Origin: Amycolatopsis nigrescens CSC17Ta-90
Lineage (GTDB): Bacteria > Actinomycetota > Actinomycetes > Mycobacteriales > Pseudonocardiaceae
Assembly (NCBI RefSeq): GCF_000384315.1
Contig: NZ_ARVW01000001.1
Location: 3,782,157-3,846,156, forward strand
Length of the DNA: 64,000 nt
Direction: 5' to 3'
A program made the translations under genes and the position numbers. Below are positions 7,480 to 37,522 of the stretch, one piece after another; the stretch's first letter is position 1; each line of letters begins with the position of its first letter. The notes beneath the pieces were generated by a model. That model searched no databases, was not told the DNA's origin, and saw only the letters and a program-made list of their open reading frames with translations.

Positions 7480-8910
7480 GTGAGTGAGAAGCCCCAGGTC
7501 CCCAATGTGCTCGCCGCCCGCTACGCCTCGCCGGAGCTGGTGGAACTCTGGTCGCCGGAACAGAAGGTGAAGCTGGAGCGCGAGCTGTGGCTGGCCGTGC
7601 TGCGCGCGCAGGCCGAGCTCGGGGTGCCGGTCGGGGACGGGGTCGTCGAGGACTACCGGCGGGTGCTGGAGAACGTCGACCTGGCGTCGATCGCGGCGCG
7701 GGAGCGGGTCACCAGGCACGACGTGAAGGCCAGGATCGAGGAGTTCAACGCGCTCGCCGGGCACGAGCAGGTGCACAAGGGGATGACCTCGCGGGACCTC
7801 ACCGAGAACGTGGAGCAGTTGCAGATCCGGCGCTCGCTGGAGCTGATGCGCGGCAGGGCGGCGGCGGTGCTGGCCCGGCTGGCGGCGCTGGCCGTGGAAC
7901 ACGCCGACCTGGTGATGGCCGGCCGTTCGCACAACGTGGCGGCGCAGGCGACCACTCTTGGCAAGCGGTTCGCGTCGGCCGCGGACGAGCTGCTGGTCGC
8001 GTTCGAGCGGGTGGACGAGCTGATCGCCCGCTACCCGCTGCGCGGCATCAAGGGTCCGGTCGGCACCGGGCAGGACATGCTCGACCTGCTCGGCCAGGAG
8101 TCCACTTTGGACGAACTGGAGAACAGGGTCGCGGCGCATCTCGGCTTCGAGCGCCGGTTCACCAGCGTCGGCCAGGTCTATCCGCGTTCGCTCGACTTCG
8201 ACGTGCTCTCCGCGGTGGTCCAGCTGGCCGCGGCGCCGTCCAGCCTGGCCAAGACCATCCGGCTGATGGCAGGGCACGAGCTGGTCACCGAGGGGTTCAA
8301 ACCGGGCCAGGTGGGCTCCTCGGCGATGCCGCACAAGATGAACACCCGGTCCTGCGAGCGGGTGAACGGGCTGGCCGTGGTGCTGCGCGGCTACCTGTCC
8401 ATGACCGGCGAGCTGGCCGGCGACCAGTGGAACGAGGGCGACGTGTCCGACTCGGTGGTCCGCCGGGTCGCGCTGCCGGACGCCTTCTTCGCGCTGGACG
8501 GGCTGCTCGAGACCTTCCTCACCGTGCTCGACGAGTTCGGCGCGTTCCCGGCCGTGGTGGCCCGCGAGCTGGACCGGTACCTGCCGTTCCTGGCCACCAC
8601 CAAGGTGCTGATGGCGGCCGTCCGCGGCGGGGTCGGCCGGGAGACCGCGCACGAGGCGATCAAGGAGAACGCGGTGGCCGTGGCGCTGGCCATGCGCGAG
8701 CAGGGGCTCACCGAGAACGACCTGCTGGACCGGTTCGCCGCGGACGAGCGGCTGCCGGTGGACCGGGACGACCTGGACAAGGTGCTGGCGGACCGGCTCT
8801 CCTTCACCGGTGTCGCCGCCGCCCAGGTGCGTTCGGTCGCCGAGCGCGTCGAGCGGCTGCTCACCCGTTTCCCGGACGCCGCCCGTTACTCCCCGCAACC
8901 CATCCTCTGA
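7480..8910 (+). CDS. purB: Adenylosuccinate lyase
   Basis: A 476-residue enzyme of the fumarase/aspartase superfamily that splits SAICAR to AICAR plus fumarate and adenylosuccinate to AMP plus fumarate in purine synthesis. Conserved features are HKGMTSRDLTENVEQ, the histidine-containing GRSHNVAAQATTLGKR region and the superfamily signature GSSAMPHKMNTRSCE on the mobile catalytic loop. Length is normal for PurB. The GTG at 7480 is supported by a TANNNT box six bases upstream and by the usual N-terminus near residue 1. purB stands alone here, away from the other pur genes in the window. An inverted repeat that serves as an attachment site begins 20 nt after its stop. Confidence 0.96.
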   Translation: MSEKPQVPNVLAARYASPELVELWSPEQKVKLERELWLAVLRAQAELGVPVGDGVVEDYRRVLENVDLASIAARERVTRHDVKARIEEFNALAGHEQVHKGMTSRDLTENVEQLQIRRSLELMRGRAAAVLARLAALAVEHADLVMAGRSHNVAAQATTLGKRFASAADELLVAFERVDELIARYPLRGIKGPVGTGQDMLDLLGQESTLDELENRVAAHLGFERRFTSVGQVYPRSLDFDVLSAVVQLAAAPSSLAKTIRLMAGHELVTEGFKPGQVGSSAMPHKMNTRSCERVNGLAVVLRGYLSMTGELAGDQWNEGDVSDSVVRRVALPDAFFALDGLLETFLTVLDEFGAFPAVVARELDRYLPFLATTKVLMAAVRGGVGRETAHEAIKENAVAVALAMREQGLTENDLLDRFAADERLPVDRDDLDKVLADRLSFTGVAAAQVRSVAERVERLLTRFPDAARYSPQPIL

Positions 8911-8929
8911 CCATTTCCGCAGGTCAGCG

Positions 8930-8951
8930 GTCGTGAGTGAAAAGTGTTGCC
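8930..8951 (+). repeat. Left arm of a split intergenic hairpin (attB host palindrome)
   Basis: These 22 bases are the left arm of an inverted repeat. Its right arm is now at 14440-14461, with 21 of 22 positions complementary. The 5.47-kb element lies between the arms. Sister copies of the palindrome occur at 23386-23456 and 37477-37522. Confidence 0.85.
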
Positions 8952-8978
8952 CCGGCCAGTACCTAATTGTTGACCTAC
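8944..8978 (+). other. attL attachment site of the serine-integrase element
   Basis: The left half, GTGTTGCCCCGGCCAGT, is the host (B) arm; the right half, TAATTGTTGACCTAC, is the phage-type (P) arm. The B arm is inverted relative to the B arm of attR, and the P arm is inverted relative to GTAGGTAACCAATTG in attR (12 of 15 positions match). Both reconstructed sites have the dinucleotide AC exactly at their centre (8961-8962 here), which is the expected crossover point for a serine integrase. Confidence 0.85.
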
Positions 8979-8981
8979 GAT
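8976..8981 (+). promoter_or_regulatory. Predicted -10 box of the integrase gene, inside attL
   Basis: TACGAT ends six bases before ATG 8988. The -10 box is element DNA, whereas the -35 position (about 8952-8958) is host DNA in the integrated state and would be replaced by bases near 14420-14426 in the excised circle. Confidence 0.5.
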
Positions 8982-8987
8982 GGTTGC

Positions 8988-10559
8988 ATGGGTGCCAGTC
9001 ACAAGGTTAGTGCAGGTCACGAGGGGCGTCGGCCCGTCTTGGACTCGTACGCGCGGTTGTCGCGTAACCAGGCGGGCAAGTTGGAGAAGTGCGAGACCCA
9101 GCATGCCGACAACGTGGAGGTGATCGAGGAACTGGGCGGCGTGCTCGGGGAGAAGATCTCCGATCCGAAGCTGTCGGCATGGAATCCGAAGGTTCACCGC
9201 CCGGGGTGGGAGTACCAGATGATGCGGGTTGCCTCCCGGGCGTGTGACGGGGTGGTGTTGTGGAACACCGACCGAGGGTGGCGGCAGTGCAGCGACCTTG
9301 AGGACATGTTCAAGCTGATCGAGGATTTCGACAGTTTCACCCTGGGCTCCTCGCACGGGTCGTACAACTTGGCGGACTACAACGACCGCCACCAGTTGCG
9401 GCAGGAAGTGGCGCACAACCAGCGCAACTCGGACGAGGCTTCACACCGGATCAAACGGCGGTTAGAGGTGCTGCGGCGTAAGGGAGTTCCGCACCATCAG
9501 GGCCGCAGCTTCGGATGGCCTGGGCTGGATCACACGATCACCAGGGAGCAGGCCATGGACGAGGATGGCAACGACACGCGGCAACCGGTTCCGGCTGAAC
9601 TTGTGGAGCGGGAGCGGGGGGCGTTGCGGACGGGCACCCGGGACAACTTGGCGGGAATCAGCTTTTCCAAGATCAGTGACGAGTGGAACGCTCAGGGGTT
9701 GCGCACCACGACCGGGCGGGAGTTCAACCCGGTCATTGTGGGGCAGGTGCTGTTGCGGCCGCGTAACGCGGGGCTGATCGAGCATGACGGCGAGATCGTG
9801 GGCACCATGCCCGGGGAACCGATCGTGGATCCGGAGGATTTCAAGCGGCTACGGGCGCGACACGCGTCGCGGGGGCCGGGCCGTCCGCCGAGTGGTACCT
9901 ACGTGGGGTCGGGGATCGGACGGTGCGGGGGGTGCCGGAAGACGCTGGGCGGTCGGCCGCACACCGGGAACTATCCGGACGGGGAACGGCGGCGTCAGTA
10001 CTTCTGTGCGAAAACACGTGGCGGATGCGGGAAGGTGGCCGCCGACCTGCGGGCGGTGGATCGGCAGATTCGTGGTCTGGTGATCGCGCGGCTGTCGGAT
10101 AAGAACTACGCGGCGGGGATCAAGGCGGCCCGCGCCCGGATCTCCGACCGGTTGGCCACCGTGGAGGCCGAGATCGCCGAGTGTGAACGGGTCCAGGTCT
10201 CGCTGTCGGTGCGGTTGGGCAAGCGGCAGATCAACGAAGCGGCGTTCGATAAGGCCAACGAACCGTTGGTGAGGGATCTGACCCGGTTGAAGGCCGAGCA
10301 GGAGGAGTTGACTGGCGGGAATCCGGAAGGGCCAACGGAAGCCATGACCCGTGACGAGGTGGCCGAGAAGTGGGACAGCGCCGATGTAGCCGAGAAACGC
10401 GCCATGCTGGCCGACGCGCTAGGGCGGGATGTGCTGATCGTGAAGCCCTCGACAGGGAAGGGGTTTCGCCGGTTCGATCCGGAGCGGGTCACGATCGATC
10501 CGTATCGGGCGCGCACTGCCACGGCAGGCACCGCTACAGATGAGGGTCAGGAGGGCTGA
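8988..10559 (+). CDS. Large serine recombinase (site-specific integrase)
   Basis: A 523-residue serine integrase. The N-terminal resolvase domain (about residues 15-150) has the catalytic serine in SYARLSRNQ, with partner arginines in RPGWEYQMMR and NTDRGWRQ. Next is the recombinase domain (GITREFN-like helix region with REFNPVIVGQVLLRPRNAG), a zinc ribbon with four cysteines (CGGCRKTL and YFCAKTRGGCGK, about residues 315-350), a coiled coil (RLATVEAEIAECE) and a C-terminal tail. It would carry out attP x attB recombination by a double-strand break with a Ser-DNA linkage. ATG 8988 is preferred to TTG 8967 because a TANNNT box stands six bases upstream and the TTG overlaps attL. The gene lies against attL, as usual. 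No recombination directionality factor is recognised nearby. Confidence 0.95.
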   Translation: MGASHKVSAGHEGRRPVLDSYARLSRNQAGKLEKCETQHADNVEVIEELGGVLGEKISDPKLSAWNPKVHRPGWEYQMMRVASRACDGVVLWNTDRGWRQCSDLEDMFKLIEDFDSFTLGSSHGSYNLADYNDRHQLRQEVAHNQRNSDEASHRIKRRLEVLRRKGVPHHQGRSFGWPGLDHTITREQAMDEDGNDTRQPVPAELVERERGALRTGTRDNLAGISFSKISDEWNAQGLRTTTGREFNPVIVGQVLLRPRNAGLIEHDGEIVGTMPGEPIVDPEDFKRLRARHASRGPGRPPSGTYVGSGIGRCGGCRKTLGGRPHTGNYPDGERRRQYFCAKTRGGCGKVAADLRAVDRQIRGLVIARLSDKNYAAGIKAARARISDRLATVEAEIAECERVQVSLSVRLGKRQINEAAFDKANEPLVRDLTRLKAEQEELTGGNPEGPTEAMTRDEVAEKWDSADVAEKRAMLADALGRDVLIVKPSTGKGFRRFDPERVTIDPYRARTATAGTATDEGQEG

Positions 10560-10626
10560 GGAGGCGTGTACGCGGCAGGGCCGCTAACCCGGTCGAGGCA
10601 GCGGCCCTGCCGTGTGTGCGGCGGTG

Positions 10627-10935
10627 TCAGGCGGCGCGGTCTTCCTCGGTGTCGTCGAGTTGAGCGAGGCGAGCGTCAATCCGGTTGAGGATCACTGCCA
10701 GCCTCTGTATCTGCTCCTCGGTCAGGGGCGGCAGATGAGGCACGATCTGCGCCCAACGTTCGACCGCTTCAGCGGCGAGACGGGCTTGTTGTTCGGTGTA
10801 GCTCTCCTTCCGGTCAGCCCCAGAGCGCGGGTGTAGCTCGGCGGGGTCGGGCAGGGCGGCGAGGTGGCGGCGGCCCCGTGGTGCGCGGCGCGGGTGGTTC
10901 TGCGAGCGGTCAGGGTGCTGTGGCCCGGGTGGCAT
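10627..10935 (-). CDS. Small hypothetical protein of the element
   Basis: A 102-residue protein starting at ATG 10935, chosen because AGAGGAG stands 7 nt upstream; longer in-frame starts (10953, 11028) lack this. The N-terminal half is basic and Pro/Arg-rich (RSQNHPRRAPRGRR), suggesting nucleic-acid contact. The C-terminal half is helical (EEQIQRLAVILNRIDARLAQL) and could dimerise. It follows the Replic_Relax gene with a 29-nt gap on the same strand and is probably co-transcribed. Homology cannot be named; small partner proteins at this position are common in actinomycete integrative elements. It is convergent with the integrase gene. Confidence 0.65.
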   Translation of the reverse strand: MPPGPQHPDRSQNHPRRAPRGRRHLAALPDPAELHPRSGADRKESYTEQQARLAAEAVERWAQIVPHLPPLTEEQIQRLAVILNRIDARLAQLDDTEEDRAA

Positions 10936-10964
10936 GGCGCGGCTCCTCTCCATGTCAGTAGCAG

Positions 10965-12281
10965 CTAGAAGACGTCGGGAGCGTCGTACAGTTCCACCCC
11001 GTCGTCGCCGTGGTGTGGTTCGTCCCAATGCGCAGTTACTGCGCGGCGCGGGTCATCGGGTGCGGTGATGCGGCGGACAATCCCCGGGTCGCCGGGGGCG
11101 AAGGCCGCTTCGCTGTACGGTTCGTCGCTGGTGCGGTGGTCGATACAGGGACCGCGTTCCGGCAGCTCGTGCAGATGATGACGGCGGACGACCGCGCCAG
11201 GAGTGCGAGGCGTCCACGATGCCCATACCGGCCCGGCAGGATCGAAGGGGGCGACGAGGTCCCGCGCGGTGGTGGCAATGACGACGCCCGGATCGTATCT
11301 GCCCGTGAACCGGGCGAGCGTGGCCCGAAACGCGGTTTCCCGGCGTGCGGAGTGCAGCGAGAACAGCACCACCCCGAACTGGTCAGCAGGGAAGGCGCCG
11401 TAGTCAGCCACCTTGCGCGCCACCACCTTTAGTGACTCGGTACCGGTGTCGTGTTCGAGGAAGAACCGCACTACCCGCCCATGCTGCTCCCAGCATCCGT
11501 AGCCGTCAGGCCGTATCCGCGCCTCGCTGCCCCCACGTTGGGTCCAGAACACTTCCGCACACCGTTTCTCCGGCCACCACTGTGTCAGCCGTCCCGCGTC
11601 CGGGAACTGGTCAGCGCGTGCGGGGTTGCGGTGCGCGGCCAACCCGCAGAAGAACTCATTCACCCCGAGGTGGTGGGACAGTTTCGGCCACAACGCCAAC
11701 CGTTCCAACCGTTCGGCGTGCGCCTTCGGGGTCGGTGATGGCCGCGCCTGCCGCGCGGCGATCATCCGCGCTCCGAGGTAGCCGAGCGCGAAGCGCGCCT
11801 GGCTGGTGCCGCCGGTGGCGTAGGAGTCTCGGAAGGCGAACACCACTCCCAGTTCCCGCAGCCGCCGCAGCCGGTCCTGTGCACGCCGTAGCGAGGTGAA
11901 CTCGATCGCCGCGATCTGCTCCGTGGTGAGCACCTGATGCTCAGCCAGCAACAGCAGCAACCGACGATCACGTCCGACCAGGCTGAACCACACCGACGCA
12001 TCCGGTTCCCCCGCCCGCCGGCCACCGCGGGCCGCTCCCGCAGCCGGCGCGCGCACCACCCGGTGAGGGGTAGATGATGACGATCCACCCGTCAGTCGGC
12101 CTTTCGCGCCACCCTGCCGGTGCCGCCTCTGAACAGCCCTTTTCTGTGAAACGTGGTCGGCGTCTGGGGCAGCGGATTCACAACGCTGTCCCTGCGTCGC
12201 CCTATCCGCCGCACCACGCGCCGTCCCAACCGCAGCCGCCTGCGAACCCCGTATCGCCCGATCCTGTCCTGGCACATTCAT
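10965..12281 (-). CDS. Replication-relaxation family protein (Replic_Relax-like)
   Basis: A 438-residue protein starting at ATG 12281 after AAGGAGTGTTGATC. After a disordered basic N-terminus of about 100 residues comes a winged-helix region (RDRRLLLLLAEHQVLTTEQI, then SLRRAQDRLRRLRELGVV), followed by a nuclease-like alpha/beta core with RIRPDGYG and FFLEHDTGTES. Those acidic residues are typical of the Replic_Relax family found on plasmids and integrative elements of Gram-positives, where it is linked to DNA relaxation for replication or transfer. Family assignment is from pattern recognition of these motifs. A transfer ATPase, usually nearby in complete elements, is absent. The small gene at 10627-10935 follows it. 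Confidence 0.78.
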   Translation of the reverse strand: MNVPGQDRAIRGSQAAAVGTARGAADRATQGQRCESAAPDADHVSQKRAVQRRHRQGGAKGRLTGGSSSSTPHRVVRAPAAGAARGGRRAGEPDASVWFSLVGRDRRLLLLLAEHQVLTTEQIAAIEFTSLRRAQDRLRRLRELGVVFAFRDSYATGGTSQARFALGYLGARMIAARQARPSPTPKAHAERLERLALWPKLSHHLGVNEFFCGLAAHRNPARADQFPDAGRLTQWWPEKRCAEVFWTQRGGSEARIRPDGYGCWEQHGRVVRFFLEHDTGTESLKVVARKVADYGAFPADQFGVVLFSLHSARRETAFRATLARFTGRYDPGVVIATTARDLVAPFDPAGPVWASWTPRTPGAVVRRHHLHELPERGPCIDHRTSDEPYSEAAFAPGDPGIVRRITAPDDPRRAVTAHWDEPHHGDDGVELYDAPDVF

Positions 12282-12390
12282 GATCAACACTCCTTGGTGG
12301 CTCGTTGCCTCCTCGATCGCCACAAGAGGCCGTTTATAACGCTGTTTTTAGACACCAAGCAGAGAAATACACTCGAATGGCGCAACGAGA

Positions 12391-12432
12391 AGCGCCCCAC
12401 CGGCCAGTGGTCTCCTGGGCGGGTGGGGCGCT
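12391..12432 (-). terminator. Hairpin downstream of the minus-strand micro-operon
   Basis: AGCGCCCCACC pairs perfectly with GGTGGGGCGCT across a 20-nt loop. With the next feature it forms a double hairpin just after the stop codon at 12479. The intergenic stretch 12282-12478 otherwise holds an AT-richer segment (about 12333-12370) that could carry the promoter for the Replic_Relax gene. Confidence 0.5.
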
Positions 12433-12443
12433 CCTTGTTCCAG

Positions 12444-12459
12444 CAGCCCCTTGGGGCTG
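12444..12459 (-). terminator. Short GC hairpin, first of a terminator pair
   Basis: CAGCCCC and GGGGCTG pair with a two-base loop, about 20 nt past the stop codon of the minus-strand gene ending at 12479. There is no T-tract, as is normal for actinomycete terminators. Confidence 0.5.
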
Positions 12460-12478
12460 GGAAATGTTGCCGTAGTTG

Positions 12479-12799
12479 CTACCGGAGTTGCCGAGGGCTG
12501 CCGGACCTGCTGGGGGCAGCGACGTCTATCGACGCTAGACGAAGCTCCCTTAGCTGCCTCTGCGCGGTTTTGTCGTCACGCTTCGCGTCTGCCTTGAGCC
12601 GTGCTACGCGAGCAAGGCAACGTTTGCAATCGACGTTGAGTGCGCTCGTAACAAAAGACGCAGATTCTTTCGGTCGGCTTATCTCGCTTCTCCACGTGCC
12701 CGGACGGCAGAGTGGAACCAACCTATCGCGCTCTGCCAGGATGTCAGGATCTGCGTAGTGGACGCGCGGGTCGGGTATTCCCGTTAGTCTAATTCGCAC
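12479..12799 (-). CDS. Small protein with a CxxC motif, element-encoded, unknown
   Basis: A 106-residue protein starting at GTG 12799 (VRIRLTGIPD), seven bases after the stop of the upstream small gene. A longer in-frame reading to 12943 lies inside that gene. It contains a cysteine at LCRPGTW and a DCKRCLARV motif, resembling the short metal-binding knuckles found in many phage and element proteins, then a basic helix rich in Lys/Arg. The spacing with the upstream gene indicates one transcript. No specific family is recognised; DNA or RNA binding is plausible from charge and the CxxC motif. The double hairpin at 12391-12459 follows it. Confidence 0.6.
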   Translation of the reverse strand: MRIRLTGIPDPRVHYADPDILAERDRLVPLCRPGTWRSEISRPKESASFVTSALNVDCKRCLARVARLKADAKRDDKTAQRQLRELRLASIDVAAPSRSGSPRQLR

Positions 12800-12806
12800 T
12801 GGTCGG

Positions 12807-13043
12807 TCACCCTTCCGCTCGGCGTAGTCGTTTAGTGTCTCGCTGTCCGCCGCATTGCTGATCGCTCCACTCGTCTGAAGACATGGCGGTGTGGACGCCT
12901 GAGTCGAGCCGTACCGGGATCGAATAGTTGCCCTTTTCTCCATAATGTTGATACGGAAGAATGATCCCGTGTTGGTACTGGCCCTCTCGCCAGAGTCGTA
13001 CTCGCTCGCCGGATAGGCGACCGGCGATGTCTGCTTCGAACAT
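12807..13043 (-). CDS. Small hypothetical protein, element-encoded
   Basis: A 78-residue protein. Two in-frame ATGs (13052 and 13043) follow GGAGG; 13043 is preferred because the first is only 2 nt from the ribosome site. Either start overlaps or abuts the stop (13046) of the upstream micro-gene, so translation is probably coupled. The sequence (GERVRLWREGQYQHG, then YSIPVRLDSGV and SSDEWSDQ) looks like a small beta-rich domain with conserved Trp/Tyr residues and no membrane segment. No family is recognised. It is the second of three genes in a minus-strand micro-operon (13201 to 12479). Confidence 0.6.
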   Translation of the reverse strand: MFEADIAGRLSGERVRLWREGQYQHGIILPYQHYGEKGNYSIPVRLDSGVHTAMSSDEWSDQQCGGQRDTKRLRRAEG

Positions 13044-13045
13044 GG

Positions 13046-13201
13046 TCAACATCGCCTCCGCCCGTCGAGCGGATGGTGCTTGTTGATCCACCAGGCATAG
13101 AGGCGAGCCCCGATGTTCGTACTATCGAGAATGACAGGCCAGACGCAGGCGCCAACGGCCAAGAGCCATGACGCGCCGAGTAAGAGAAGGATCCAACTCA
13201 T
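13046..13201 (-). CDS. 51-residue single-pass membrane protein
   Basis: The frame starting at ATG 13201 encodes MSWILLLLGASWLL, a membrane helix ending near VWPVIL, and a polar tail with YAWWINKHHPLDGRRRC, so it is probably one helix with a basic cytoplasmic or extracellular tail. It ends in TGA at 13046, overlapping the start region of the next gene. A second, truncated copy of the same gene lies upstream in a tandem repeat, and the N-terminal 17 residues are nearly identical between copies, with mainly conservative changes. That conservation argues the frame is real. No clear ribosome site precedes it; instead a GC-rich structured leader ends at the start codon. Function is unknown; small membrane proteins are frequent near transfer genes of actinomycete elements. 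Confidence 0.65.
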   Translation of the reverse strand: MSWILLLLGASWLLAVGACVWPVILDSTNIGARLYAWWINKHHPLDGRRRC

Positions 13202-13558
13202 AAGTCAGCCCGCCTGGTAGGCCAGGGGCGTAATGCGTCGCTTGCCCCTGACCCGCCAATGGCGGGCTGAGAGTCAAGCGACCTTCTCTGCCTGCAATGG
13301 CAGTCCGCTTGGGTATTCATGGAGTTATGTCCTTATGTTCGCGTATTATCGAGAATGGACGGCCAGATGCGCAGGCCAACGACTAAGAGCCATGACGCGC
13401 CGAGTAAGAGAAGAGTCCAACTCATGACTCAGCCCGCCTGGTAGGCCAGGGGCGTAATGCGTCGCTTGCCCCTGACCCGCCAATGGCGGGCTGAGAGTCA
13501 AGCGACCTTCTCTGCCTGTAACGGCAGTCCGCTTGGGTATTCATGGAGTTATGTCCTT
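13113..13558 (-). repeat. Tandem direct repeat, two copies of 222-224 bp
   Basis: Copy 1 is 13113-13334 and copy 2 is 13335-13558. They are almost identical over the central 130 bp and diverge at the micro-gene end. Each unit, read on the minus strand, carries a structured leader and the start of the micro-gene. In copy 1 the leader includes CAGCCCGCC (13261-13269 on minus), which can pair either with the adjacent GGCGGG or with GGCGGGCTG (13206-13214) just before the ATG, and GTCGCTTG (13275-13282 on minus), which can pair with CAAGCGAC (13237-13244). The alternatives are mutually exclusive and could form a pseudoknot. Confidence 0.85.
13333..13425 (-). pseudogene. Truncated duplicate of the 51-residue membrane-protein gene
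   Basis: ATG 13425 opens a 30-codon frame (MSWTLLLLGASWLLVV, stop TAA at 13333). It matches the first half of the micro-gene at 13046-13201 and then stops at the repeat junction, so the tail with YAWWINKHH is missing. It keeps the whole membrane helix and the same leader, so it could still be translated into a short membrane peptide. Loss of the tail is best explained by the tandem duplication that created the repeat. Confidence 0.6.
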
Positions 13559-13609
13559 GATCAGGCCCGGCCCGATGCCGGGCGGAGCACCCAGAGTAAC
13601 CCCTGATCA
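13559..13609 (-). terminator. Hairpin after the 66-residue gene
   Basis: The outer arms GATCAGG and CCTGATC enclose an inner stem CCCGGC/GCCGGG. The structure begins at the stop codon of the minus-strand gene ending at 13607, a suitable transcription terminator. Confidence 0.5.
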
Positions 13610-13807
13610 GCCGCCTGTCACGTCGTAGAACGTGTGGCCCACCCGGACGGATGTACTACCCGTCAACAGGTCATGGACGCCCTGAAGCGCTTCGGCGGCC
13701 TTGTTGTCCTTCGCCAGGTGCCGCCATCCGATCTCCAGTCGGCGAAGCTCGGCGATCAGTTCGTCCCTCGAACCCTCGACCAGCAGGCGTTCACGTGCTG
13801 TCTCCAT
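13607..13807 (-). CDS. 66-residue helical protein, element-encoded
   Basis: Starts at ATG 13807 (METARERLLVEG). TACTCT stands six bases upstream, so the transcript is probably leaderless; an in-frame GTG at 13846 would overlap the divergent gene. The protein is a compact helical domain (DELIAELRRLEIGWRHLAKD, then AEALQGVHDLL) with a short beta tail ending RVGHTFYDVTGG. It resembles small regulatory or antitoxin-sized proteins but I recognise no family. It is divergent from the NUDIX gene with only 32 nt between the starts, so the two promoters face each other and may be jointly regulated. Confidence 0.6.
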   Translation of the reverse strand: METARERLLVEGSRDELIAELRRLEIGWRHLAKDNKAAEALQGVHDLLTGSTSVRVGHTFYDVTGG

Positions 13808-13813
13808 GCGCGC

Positions 13814-13819
13814 AGAGTA
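13814..13819 (-). promoter_or_regulatory. Predicted -10 box, leaderless 66-residue gene
   Basis: Reads TACTCT on the minus strand and ends six bases before ATG 13807. It lies back to back with the NUDIX -10 box at 13828-13833. Confidence 0.5.
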
Positions 13820-13827
13820 TCGGATCA

Positions 13828-13833
13828 TATGCT
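13828..13833 (+). promoter_or_regulatory. Predicted -10 box, leaderless NUDIX gene
   Basis: TATGCT ends six bases before GTG 13840. No ribosome site is present, which supports a leaderless start. Confidence 0.5.
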
Positions 13834-13839
13834 GAGCAA

Positions 13840-14313
13840 GTGCCACCCCGCATCGGAGCCAGAGTGCTGTTGCTCGACCCGCGAGACCGCGTACTTCTCC
13901 TGCTCTCTATCGACCCCGACGAGCCTTCGCATCGTTGGTGGGACCTTCCCGGCGGCGGAGCGAACCCCGGAGAAGATCTCACCGACACCGCGCGCCGAGA
14001 GTTGGCCGAAGAGACAGGCATGGTCATTGACGCGCTCGGCCCGCACCTGTGGGATCGGGAGGTCCGCTTCCGCTTCCGAGACCGGTGGCACCACCGCCGC
14101 GACCGCGTCTTTTTCGCGCGGGTGTCGAACATCAGTCCGTCCCGTACGCCGTCGCACACGGCCAACGAGCAAGCGAACCTCATCGAGACCCGCTGGTGGT
14201 CTCTGGCGGAACTGGAGAGCAGTTCGGCTAAGTTCCTGCCGCCGAATCTCCCGGCCCTGCTGGCCGACCTCCTCAGCGGCGAACTGCACGCGCCGATCTT
14301 CCTCAACGCCTGA
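13840..14313 (+). CDS. NUDIX hydrolase, element-encoded
   Basis: A 157-residue NUDIX protein. The complete Nudix box is seen around residues 37-60: GGGANPGEDLTDTARRELAE followed by ETG, with the Mg-binding glutamates of REL-x-EE. NUDIX enzymes hydrolyse nucleoside-diphosphate-X compounds. GTG 13840 is used because the box then lies at the normal distance and a TATGCT -10 box precedes it; the longer frame overlaps the divergent gene. It is the last gene before attR. NUDIX genes are typical passengers of actinomycete integrative elements, where a role in nucleotide signalling or regulation of transfer has been suggested; no substrate can be assigned. Confidence 0.9.
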   Translation: MPPRIGARVLLLDPRDRVLLLLSIDPDEPSHRWWDLPGGGANPGEDLTDTARRELAEETGMVIDALGPHLWDREVRFRFRDRWHHRRDRVFFARVSNISPSRTPSHTANEQANLIETRWWSLAELESSSAKFLPPNLPALLADLLSGELHAPIFLNA

Positions 14314-14343
14314 CGCACTAGATGGCGCGTTGTACTCAGTCCA

Positions 14344-14376
14344 CCGGTCTCACCGTGCTATCCACGGTGAGACCGG
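14344..14376 (+). terminator. Perfect 14-bp hairpin after the NUDIX gene
   Basis: CCGGTCTCACCGTG and CACGGTGAGACCGG are separated by CTATC, 31 nt after the NUDIX stop. It would stop transcription before attR and the downstream host ABC-transporter genes. Confidence 0.7.
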
Positions 14377-14412
14377 CCAAGCGTGGCCTACGAGGGATCG
14401 CGCAGGTCACAA

Positions 14413-14447
14413 GTAGGTAACCAATTGCACCTTGGCTCCGGCAACAC
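14413..14447 (+). other. attR attachment site of the element
   Basis: P arm GTAGGTAACCAATTG, then C-AC-C with the crossover AC at 14429-14430, then B arm TTGGCTCCGGCAACAC. Joined with attL it yields a 36-bp attB and a roughly 34-bp attP, both imperfect palindromes centred on AC. Confidence 0.85.
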
Positions 14448-14461
14448 TTTCCACTCACGAC
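14440..14461 (+). repeat. Right arm of the split intergenic hairpin
   Basis: Pairs with 8930-8951 once the element is removed. The first 21 bases are identical to 37501-37521, the right arm of another copy in front of purL. Confidence 0.85.
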
Positions 14462-14606
14462 GTCGGTTGTGGGAGAAGGCACAGGGAGGCGTCCACGGAG
14501 TGGGACGGCACTACTCGATCGGGCGAATTTCCTAGGGTGTGCCTGAACCCGAGGCTAGGCCGCCTACCCGCGGTCTGGCCTTTCTGTCGCGTCCGAAGGA
14601 AGAAGC

Positions 14607-15428
14607 ATGAGATCCACGCTGCGCAGAGTCCTCGTCGTGCTCACCGCCGGGACGGCGATCGCCGTACTCGCCGGCTGCGGCTCCTCCTCCGGTGACGCCG
14701 CCTCCGGGAAATTGCGGGTGGGCACGCTCACCGACGCGCCGCCGTCGATCTACCTGGAGAACGGCAACTTCACCGGTTACGACAACGAGCTGCTGCGCGA
14801 CATCGCCAAGCGCGAGGGCTTCGAGGTCGAGTTCGTCGGCACCGAGTTCGCCGGCCTGCTGGCCAGCGTGGCGAACCGGAAGTTCGACCTCGGCAGCTCC
14901 ACCATCTCCACCACCGACGAGCGCAAGAAGACGGTCGCCTTCTCCAACGGCTACAGCACCGGTTTCACCACCATCGTCACCAGGAAGGACGCCGGGCTCA
15001 AGGACGTCGGTTCCTTCGCCGGCAAGCGGCTCGGGGTGGTGCAGGCCTCGGTGCAGGACGAGTTCGCCAGCAAGAAGGTGCCCGGCGCGGATGTGGTGCG
15101 CTTTCCCGACTACAACGCGGGTTTCGCGCAGCTGAAGGGCGGCACCCTGGACGGCTGGGTGGTGCCGAAGGACATCGGGCAGAAGTACCTGGACCAGAAC
15201 CCGGCCGTGCCGCTGGAGTTCGGCTACACCGTGGAGACGAAGGACACCCCGTCCGCGTACGCGGTGCGCAAGGACAACAAGGAACTGCTGAACAAGGTCA
15301 ACGACGGCCTGGCCAAGGCGATCGCCGACGGCACCGTGGCCCGGTTGCACGCGCAGTTCTTCAAGACTCAGCCCCTCCCCGCCGAGCTCGCCCAGGGCGG
15401 CCCCGGCCTCCCGGTCCAGAACCCCTGA
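14607..15428 (+). CDS. ABC transporter substrate-binding lipoprotein 1 (polar amino-acid type)
   Basis: A 273-residue lipoprotein. The signal peptide ends in the lipobox VLAGC (Cys about residue 24), so the mature protein is anchored outside the membrane. The periplasmic-binding-protein family 3 fold is shown by KLRVGTLTDAPPSIYLENG, TGYDNELLRDIAKREG, the FDLGSSTISTTDERK motif and a second lobe GKRLGVVQASVQDEF. Family 3 proteins bind polar amino acids or related small compounds. AAGGAAG precedes ATG 14607. It is the first of three tandem binding-protein genes feeding one permease and one ATPase. It is the most divergent of the three, so it may recognise a different ligand. The element described above separates it from purB. 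Confidence 0.93.
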   Translation: MRSTLRRVLVVLTAGTAIAVLAGCGSSSGDAASGKLRVGTLTDAPPSIYLENGNFTGYDNELLRDIAKREGFEVEFVGTEFAGLLASVANRKFDLGSSTISTTDERKKTVAFSNGYSTGFTTIVTRKDAGLKDVGSFAGKRLGVVQASVQDEFASKKVPGADVVRFPDYNAGFAQLKGGTLDGWVVPKDIGQKYLDQNPAVPLEFGYTVETKDTPSAYAVRKDNKELLNKVNDGLAKAIADGTVARLHAQFFKTQPLPAELAQGGPGLPVQNP

Positions 15429-22485: not shown

Positions 22486-23391
22486 GTGACCTCGACACCA
22501 GCGACGCTCGCCGACTACCCGAAGATCGCGGCCGGCAAGGTCCGCGAGCTGTACGCCGTGGACGACGAGCACCTGCTGCTCGTCGCCTCGGACCGGATCT
22601 CGGCCTTCGACTTCATCCTGGACACCCCCATCCCGGACAAGGGCAGGGTGCTCACCGCGATGAGCGTCTTCTGGTTCGAGCTGCTGGCGGACGTGCTGCC
22701 GAACCACCTGGTCGGCTACGACGACCCACGCATCCCGGCCGAGGTGCGCGGCCGCGCGCTGCTGGTGCGGCGGCTGGAGATGCTGCCGGTCGAGGCGGTC
22801 GCCCGCGGCTACCTCGCGGGTTCGGGTTTCACCGACTACCAGCGCACGGGCTCGGTGTGCGGCGTCGAGCTGCCGGCCGGGCTGCTCGAGGCGGACAAGC
22901 TGCCGGCACCGGTGTTCACCCCGGCGTCCAAGGCCGCGCTCGGCGAGCACGACGAGAACGTCAGCTTCGAGGCCGTGGTGGCGTCGGTCGGGCGGCAGCG
23001 GGCCGAGCAGGTGCGCGATGCCACGCTGGCGATCTACCGGCGCGGCGCCGAGCACGCGGCGGCTCGCGGGATCGTGCTGGCGGACACCAAGTTCGAGTTC
23101 GGCGTGGACGAGACCGGCGCGCTGGTGCTCGGCGACGAGGTGCTCACCCCGGACTCCTCGCGCTACTGGCCCGCCGACGGCTATCTGCCGGGACGGCCGC
23201 AGCCCTCCTTCGACAAGCAGTACGTGCGGGACTGGCTGACCGGCCCGGAGTCCGGCTGGCAGCGGGCGTCCGACACCCCGCCGCCGCCGCTTCCGCCGGA
23301 GGTGGTGGCCGCGACCAGGGCGCGCTACGTCGAGGCGTACGAACGGATCAGCGGCCGTTCACTAGCTGACTGGCCCGCTCCGACCTCGTGA
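22486..23391 (+). CDS. purC: Phosphoribosylaminoimidazole-succinocarboxamide (SAICAR) synthase
   Basis: A 301-residue enzyme that joins CAIR and aspartate with ATP to give SAICAR in de novo purine synthesis. Conserved stretches are [65 protein letters not shown] and [14 protein letters not shown]. Length fits the long, yeast-like single-domain form common in actinobacteria. The GTG start at 22486 is supported by a -10-like box six bases upstream. Its stop codon lies within the left arm of an inverted repeat (23386-23456). Confidence 0.96.
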
Positions 23392-23456
23392 GTGAAAAAC
23401 GTTGTCTGGTGTCCTGCGGGACACCCGCACCCGGGGCGAACGCTTTTCACTCACGA
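23386..23456. repeat. Intergenic inverted repeat at the purC stop codon
   Basis: TCGTGAGTGAAAAACGTT pairs with AACGCTTTTCACTCACGA (one mismatch). Between the arms lies a second hairpin, GGTGTCC/GGACACC. It belongs to the same family as the element's attB and the copy before purL, and may terminate purC. Confidence 0.85.
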
Positions 23457-23515
23457 CCTGGGCCAGTTACCTTGAGGTCAGGCCGCGGTCACACTGAGCT
23501 GTCCTACTGGGCAGC

Positions 23516-37476: not shown

Positions 37477-37522
37477 CTCGTGAGTGAAAACGGTTGCCCT
37501 GGCAACACTTTCCACTCACGAG
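37477..37522. repeat. Intergenic inverted repeat before purL
   Basis: Arms 37477-37498 and 37501-37522 pair at 19 of 22 positions with a two-base CT loop. The right arm is identical to the right arm of the element's attB palindrome. It lies between divergent genes. Confidence 0.9.

Follow-up and report, generated by a model that had tools for sequence, protein, structure and literature searches.

Which site does a small mobile element use in the genome of Amycolatopsis nigrescens CSC17Ta-90, and at which base pairs is it joined to its host? The question is raised by a stretch of 64,000 nucleotides (contig NZ_ARVW01000001.1, positions 3,782,157 to 3,846,156; here called the window), in which an insertion carrying an intact gene for a predicted large serine recombinase (8988-10559) is located downstream of purB. 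A sequence-only reading of this DNA had proposed a serine-integrase element at 8944-14447 with readable attachment sites, a 36-bp attB and the crossover dinucleotide AC. The intact recombinase and the inverted ends were confirmed, but the precise ends were not. From comparison of sequences, we conclude at a rough probability of 0.9 that the element was inserted by its own recombinase at the CC centre of a dispersed, terminator-like palindrome, and that related elements were likewise inserted at CT.

Among 20 inverted pairs listed for 8700-14700, the longest is formed by 8930-8978 and 14413-14461 (49 nt, 76% complementary), and the P arms (GTAGGT...), already recognized as inverted copies, lie within it. 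When the flanks are joined at CC (8952-8953 = 14438-14439), a full-length copy of a host repeat is restored, with 21 of the 22 arm pairs complementary. This repeat is a 46-bp palindrome, CGTGAGTG-N26-CACTCACG, typical copies of which are whole with a 6-nt centre. The insertion extends from 8952 to 14437 (5,486 bp), and the host arms on both sides, also described before as inverted copies, are the halves of the repeat and reach 8930 and 14461. The repeat itself constitutes attB, GTCGTGAGTGAAAAGTGTTGCC-CC-GGCAACACTTTCCACTCACGAC, and attP reads GTAGGT...TTGGCT-CC-GGCCAGT...ACCTAC. As a rule, attP and attB need a common central dinucleotide, which probably applies here as well; both are symmetrical, as had been stated, and share the central dinucleotide with no longer target duplication, the bases common to attL and attR in the window being five, CCGGC. 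The testable recognition sequence is this common genomic palindrome of 46 bp centred on CC, and not the 36-bp attB centred on AC that had been announced. As judged by eye and without statistics, a GTRRGT motif is shifted by 6 bp between attB and attP; for a Listeria integrase, the zinc-domain motif in attB is described, in the accessible text of PMC3783163, as shifted 5 bp inward from attP.

Both ends of the contig fall within another copy of the element, here called the second copy (1-521 and 9110499-9111009 of G000:C1; L061 and L062), the ends of which are 99-100% identical to the window element and are set in different host flanks. Its attL and attR share exactly CC, and the overlap is therefore limited to CC and a crossover at AC disfavoured. 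Assuming that it is full length, the assembly lacks about 4.5 kb of it at the contig ends.

Recombination at AC by a single-site integrase would use a 36-bp attB, GTGTTGCCCCGGCCAGTACCTTGGCTCCGGCAACAC, which is roughly palindromic too, since P arms and B arms are both inverted copies. Joining at AC, however, implies a gap of 44 nt between the outer motifs, and among the loci read, uninterrupted repeats gave 52 matches with a gap of 26 nt, two with 53 and none with 44 (0 of 54, overlapping loci being counted more than once in this tally). The AC version, which would need an uninterrupted site with CCAGTACCTTGG between the unit arms, is contradicted in its present form. The inner sequence GGCCAGTACCTTGGC, taken before as part of attB, has no exact uninterrupted copy in the genome (159 matches with one or two mismatches versus 65 for the reversed control). 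Both genome copies of the element carry the same inner GGCCAGTAC / CACCTTGGCT, in the relatives the element side of CT is occupied by inner sequences of their own, and an element-free orthologue of a relative lacks that element's inner sequences. Element-borne bases had been assigned to attB, and the attP of about 34 bp had been reconstructed from sites split 9-10 bp inward of the actual crossover. A crossover at AC has next to no chance of being correct.

The junctions were compared among 18 near homologues, comprising the second copy, three remnants and 14 full-length integrases, of which one is that of the window and 13 show 66-72% identity. The left junction is located inside a unit arm in all 18, two of which show changes in CGTGAGTG. 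Both ends were read for ten elements, namely the window element, the second copy (contig ends) and eight elements of 10.4-18.6 kb in five other genomes; all ten restore the CGTGAGTG-N26-CACTCACG unit when joined at the overlap, the position of which was set by hand, and 19-22 of the 22 arm pairs of the restored units are complementary. Remnants in G022 and G043 and a third fragment in G009 were excluded from this count. With the G022 remnant (2.7 kb; TT/CT), the outer motif is not restored exactly. The elements occur in three copies in G053, three in G079, two plus a remnant in G009 and two in the present genome, and two of the G053 copies are 99.98% identical over 13.1 kb. A broken integrase copy in G043 (L102) has two attR-like ends in succession, separated by about 310 bp, which points to two insertions next to each other.

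The centre of the repeats differs between hosts. In the present genome, 115 of the 184 units are centred on CC and 52 on CT, in either orientation. The corresponding CC/CT counts are 2/227 of 229 in G053, 1/247 of 248 in G009, 4/116 of 120 in G079, 2/389 of 391 in G077, 2/84 of 87 in G007, 5/87 of 95 in G042, 9/28 of 40 in G035 and 0/38 of 38 in G039. The overlap of the elements is CC in both copies of the present genome and CT in the eight elements of G053, G009, G077, G035 and G039, and is therefore the commonest unit centre of its host in this and five other genomes, a comparison that represents one contrast of one genome with its relatives and not independent cases. In G079, G007 and G042, the attL that was read fits CT.

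The 184 copies of the strict unit are spread over a genome of 9,111,009 bp. Within the genus, the unit is present in 68 of 80 genomes with up to 492 copies (reversed control, 0 in all 80), and in the family sample in 66 of 200 genomes, representing 18 of 46 genera with that of the window included. The half-arm GTCGTGAGTGAAAAGTGTTG and its inverted partner gave 366 genome matches (181 on the plus and 185 on the minus strand) at up to two mismatches and none when reversed; in the window, six matches were found at up to three mismatches versus 0.04 expected. Further copies in the window are located at 37477-37522 (canonical length, CT centre) and 23385-23457 (arms wider apart). That repeats and elements share a genus, and that most repeats are centred on the CC or CT of the element overlaps, would also be expected if the repeats were products of the elements, either excision scars or miniature derivatives. 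This origin is very unlikely: G033, with the most units in the genus (492), gave no integrase match; other genera also have abundant units, among them ones with a palindromic centre, for example AT; the arms vary between species while the integrases stay 66-72% identical; and in several species lacking the unit, a different inverted repeat is seen by eye at the orthologous site.

Searches with the joined flanks of the ten sites gave element-free orthologous sites, and the 30 that were read belong to three of the ten elements (G039, G053c and G035). The best orthologue, that of the G039 site, shows 97.3% identity over 364 bp, and the intact unit there is identical at 46 of 46 positions to that restored from the element flanks. 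At 11 of the 30 sites, a unit is present in which the outer motif is exact, the others showing variants or other sequence, in several cases another inverted repeat. The comparison with element-free relatives, proposed earlier as a check, thus gave an intact site for a sister element. For the window site, purB was matched in 59 other genomes and its 1.5-kb 3' flank was read in 29, all of which lack both the element and the unit.

Alternatively, the recombinase might recognize hairpin structure and not sequence, like a hairpin-preferring transposase. The multi-copy habit agrees with this, and so do the ends of a distant relative in G050, where both ends were read at inverted repeats of other sequence (centre TT by symmetry). 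Such recognition is nevertheless very unlikely: in all ten elements the insertion lies at the same fixed base-pair step, the outer CGTGAGTG is retained and the two junctions share their central dinucleotide, as they do when attP recombines with attB. More generally, several left junctions of the distant clade (about 42-49% identity) lie beside other inverted repeats, and right ends were found for few of its members. Distant integrases (47-49%) at other inverted repeats are represented by L092 with L156 (G050) and L087 with L151 (G044). A similar left junction is seen in records of Kibdelosporangium (48% identity) and of Sciscionella (50%), with CGTGCGTG in the latter; the right ends of these two elements were not found in the DNA examined.

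In the proposed reaction, the large serine recombinase of the element would have inserted the 5,486 bp into the exact centre of the 46-bp repeat downstream of purB. Recombination of attP with attB at the non-palindromic CC would leave one repeat half at each end, and the elements of sister species would do likewise with CT, the commonest centre of the repeats of their hosts. The integrase would have many possible targets, since the host carries 184 repeats, and terminator hairpins at gene 3' ends would be harmless landing places.

Several points weigh against insertion by this route. Nine elements share 3-7 nt between attL and attR, so that the dinucleotide is placed by symmetry, and CC is a majority centre in the present genome (115:52), not an exclusive one. 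The second copy was read from two contig ends of 0.5 kb each. No right end was found within 30 kb for the G042 and G007 elements, the G079 copies run off their contigs, and the overlap in these three genomes comes from attL only. An empty window site with the unit was not found among the 29 purB flanks. Within the present genome, the halves of the units show no covariation beyond shuffling (0.924 versus 0.917), because the arms hardly vary there. The terminator function is deduced from position and folding, and no recombination was observed.

The protein itself has the features of a large serine recombinase. Matches above the cut-off were obtained for the N-terminal resolvase catalytic domain (PF00239, E 1.8e-6) and the Recombinase domain (PF07508, E 3.7e-6), and a solved integrase, 9iu2, was matched at profile positions 242-474 (E 7.7e-6). 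Among 13 integrase sequences, Y21, R23 and the catalytic serine S25 are invariant, as are the zinc-ribbon cysteines C313, C340 and C347, with C316 nearly so. The zinc ribbon gave no Pfam match, and DUF4368 is absent from the Pfam matches of the recombinase at E <= 0.1. On its catalytic, Recombinase and zinc-ribbon features, the protein is predicted to belong to the large serine recombinases; its nearest named relatives (66-71% identity) are from Amycolatopsis species.

When folded as RNA, two of the units formed long hairpins, with energies of -31.1 and -38.0 kcal/mol (z scores, -9.2 and -13.0). The gene context was examined by a mechanical call of open reading frames (ORFs) for 22 distinct units of the genome, together with three further loci without a canonical central unit. 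Among the 22, 12 are located between convergent genes (10 of them no more than 20 bp from both), five between tandem genes and five inside an ORF call. With 17 of the 22 outside ORF calls, the repeat has the properties of repetitive extragenic palindromes (REPs), being short, palindromic, extragenic and multi-copy. Over 42 distinct units, the inner arms pair at 94.3% of positions versus 64.7% for shuffled halves, a control that mixes species, so that part of the gap reflects relatedness. From their position and folding, the units probably serve as bidirectional terminators, forming hairpins where genes end. At one orthologous place (L181-L193), sister species variously retain a hairpin with inner arms swapped in matching pairs, have the centre CT flipped to AG, or show a different inverted repeat.

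If such a hairpin were split, host read-through would reach the integrase. Among 15 left flanks, 10 carry a frame (129 codons or more; third-position G+C content, GC3, 0.7 or higher) that is directed into the integrase and stops 18-46 bp short of the overlap; purB, for which another frame had been chosen automatically, would be the eleventh such gene. A gene pointing into the integrase is, however, expected without selection, because most placed units are convergent. That the integrase lineage is specialised on host terminator hairpins, with the overlap following the commonest centre, and that the split terminator switches the integrase on by host transcription, is accordingly a tentative idea to which we give somewhat less than even odds; terminator breakage as a driver of integrase expression becomes a testable question.

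Known systems were compared as described in the accessible texts of the papers cited. In multi-targeting large serine recombinases, one integrase uses many attB sites, as would the window element, and enzymes evolved toward sequences repeated across the host are foreseen there (PMC10083194). By contrast, the motif in the worked example of that paper is relaxed, with TT at its core and ends rich in T/A, and the string 'palindrom' has zero occurrences in the main text. DUF4368 is carried by 63% of that multi-targeting clade but was not found in the window recombinase. The insertion sequences ISPsy8, ISPa11 and ISPpu9 use extragenic palindromic repeats as target arrays, as here (PMC1525189); those systems are insertion sequences, whereas here a large serine recombinase acts with attP and attB on elements of 5.5-18.6 kb. 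Neither the repeat nor a serine integrase targeting it is described among the open-licence PubMed Central (PMC) matches listed, and neither Amycolatopsis nor Pseudonocardia occurs in the accessible text of a REP survey (PMC12306157). Integrases with multiple targets and insertion sequences directed at REPs are known already; their combination, not seen among the matches listed, appears to be a new variation on them. It provides, in a single genome from a genus of soil actinomycetes, an integrase whose natural and similar landing sites number well over a hundred, most of the placed ones being intergenic, and a natural contrast between a CC host and CT hosts in which integrase specificity can be compared with the host repeat family. 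The hairpins of a bacterium appear to form a ready-made landing-site array, which suggests that a serine-integrase element can turn multi-copy without relaxed specificity.

The features of the element are summarized in Table 1. It is flanked by purB (7480-8910) on one side and a gene for a solute-binding protein (14607-15428) on the other.

Table 1. Features of the element and of its junctions with the host (positions in the window)
Feature	Position	Strand	Basis
B arm of attL (left half of host palindrome, 46 bp)	8930..8951	+	Inverted-pair, half-arm and joined-flank comparisons
Overlap dinucleotide CC, left copy; first bases of element	8952..8953	.	Joined flanks, second copy
P' arm of attL, element-borne, GGCCAGTACCTAATTGTTGACCTAC; identical in second copy	8954..8978	+	
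Intact predicted large serine recombinase of 523 aa; conserved S25 and C313/C316/C340/C347	8988..10559	+	
Small ORF, 133 aa, no family; C-terminal part in 8 of 9 elements compared (window's included)	10627..11028	-	
Replic_Relax (PF13814) protein, 452 aa, E 4.8e-48	10965..12323	-	
ORF, 154 aa, no family	12479..12943	-	
ORF, 94 aa, no family	12807..13091	-	
Direct repeat of 217 nt in two copies (92% identity; 224 nt apart)	13118..13558	.	
ORF, 79 aa, no family	13607..13846	-	
NUDIX hydrolase ORF, E 1.6e-20; domain begins at residue 66, real start probably later	13651..14313	+	
P arm of attR, element-borne, GTAGGTAACCAATTGCACCTTGGCT	14413..14437	+	
Overlap dinucleotide CC, right copy	14438..14439	.	
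B' arm of attR (right half of host palindrome, 46 bp)	14440..14461	+	

Among the eight other elements compared, relatives of the Replic_Relax protein are present in two (G077 and G053c) and relatives of ORF 10627-11028 in seven. The larger elements look like integrative conjugative elements in sequence: an FtsK-like ATPase (PF01580, E 4.3e-10) is encoded in G009, and a coupling-protein-like ATPase together with Replic_Relax and NUDIX proteins in G077. In these genes they resemble the actinomycete integrative and conjugative elements (AICEs), 19 of 144 of which have serine integrases (PMC3218068). The AICE integration sites named in the accessible text of that paper are protein-coding genes and a tRNA Leu gene, with no dispersed repeat. 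Unlike AICEs, the window element has no FtsK/SpoIIIE translocase among its seven ORFs scanned (at least 79 aa). No known Rep (RepSA, RepAM or Prim-Pol) was found in the subset of ORFs scanned from it and its relatives, only Replic_Relax. The window element is possibly a small, mobilisable form of these larger, conjugative-type relatives, as judged from gene content.

A tRNA target was ruled out, as the window contains no tRNA. A phage or plasmid origin was rejected, since 255 of 50,697 phage records and 12 of 72,556 plasmid records were matched, all distantly (less than 60% identity), and a single locus was matched in IMG/VR (25% identity). Rfam gave for 8700-14700 a lone match far under its gathering score and none at the repeat. 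A small HTH_58 protein encoded near attR in G009, with a related one in G053c, is a candidate directionality factor, and gave no tblastn match in the window element. Within the window element, each of the two 217-nt direct copies contains an inverted pair, CAGCCCGCC...GGCGGGCTG.

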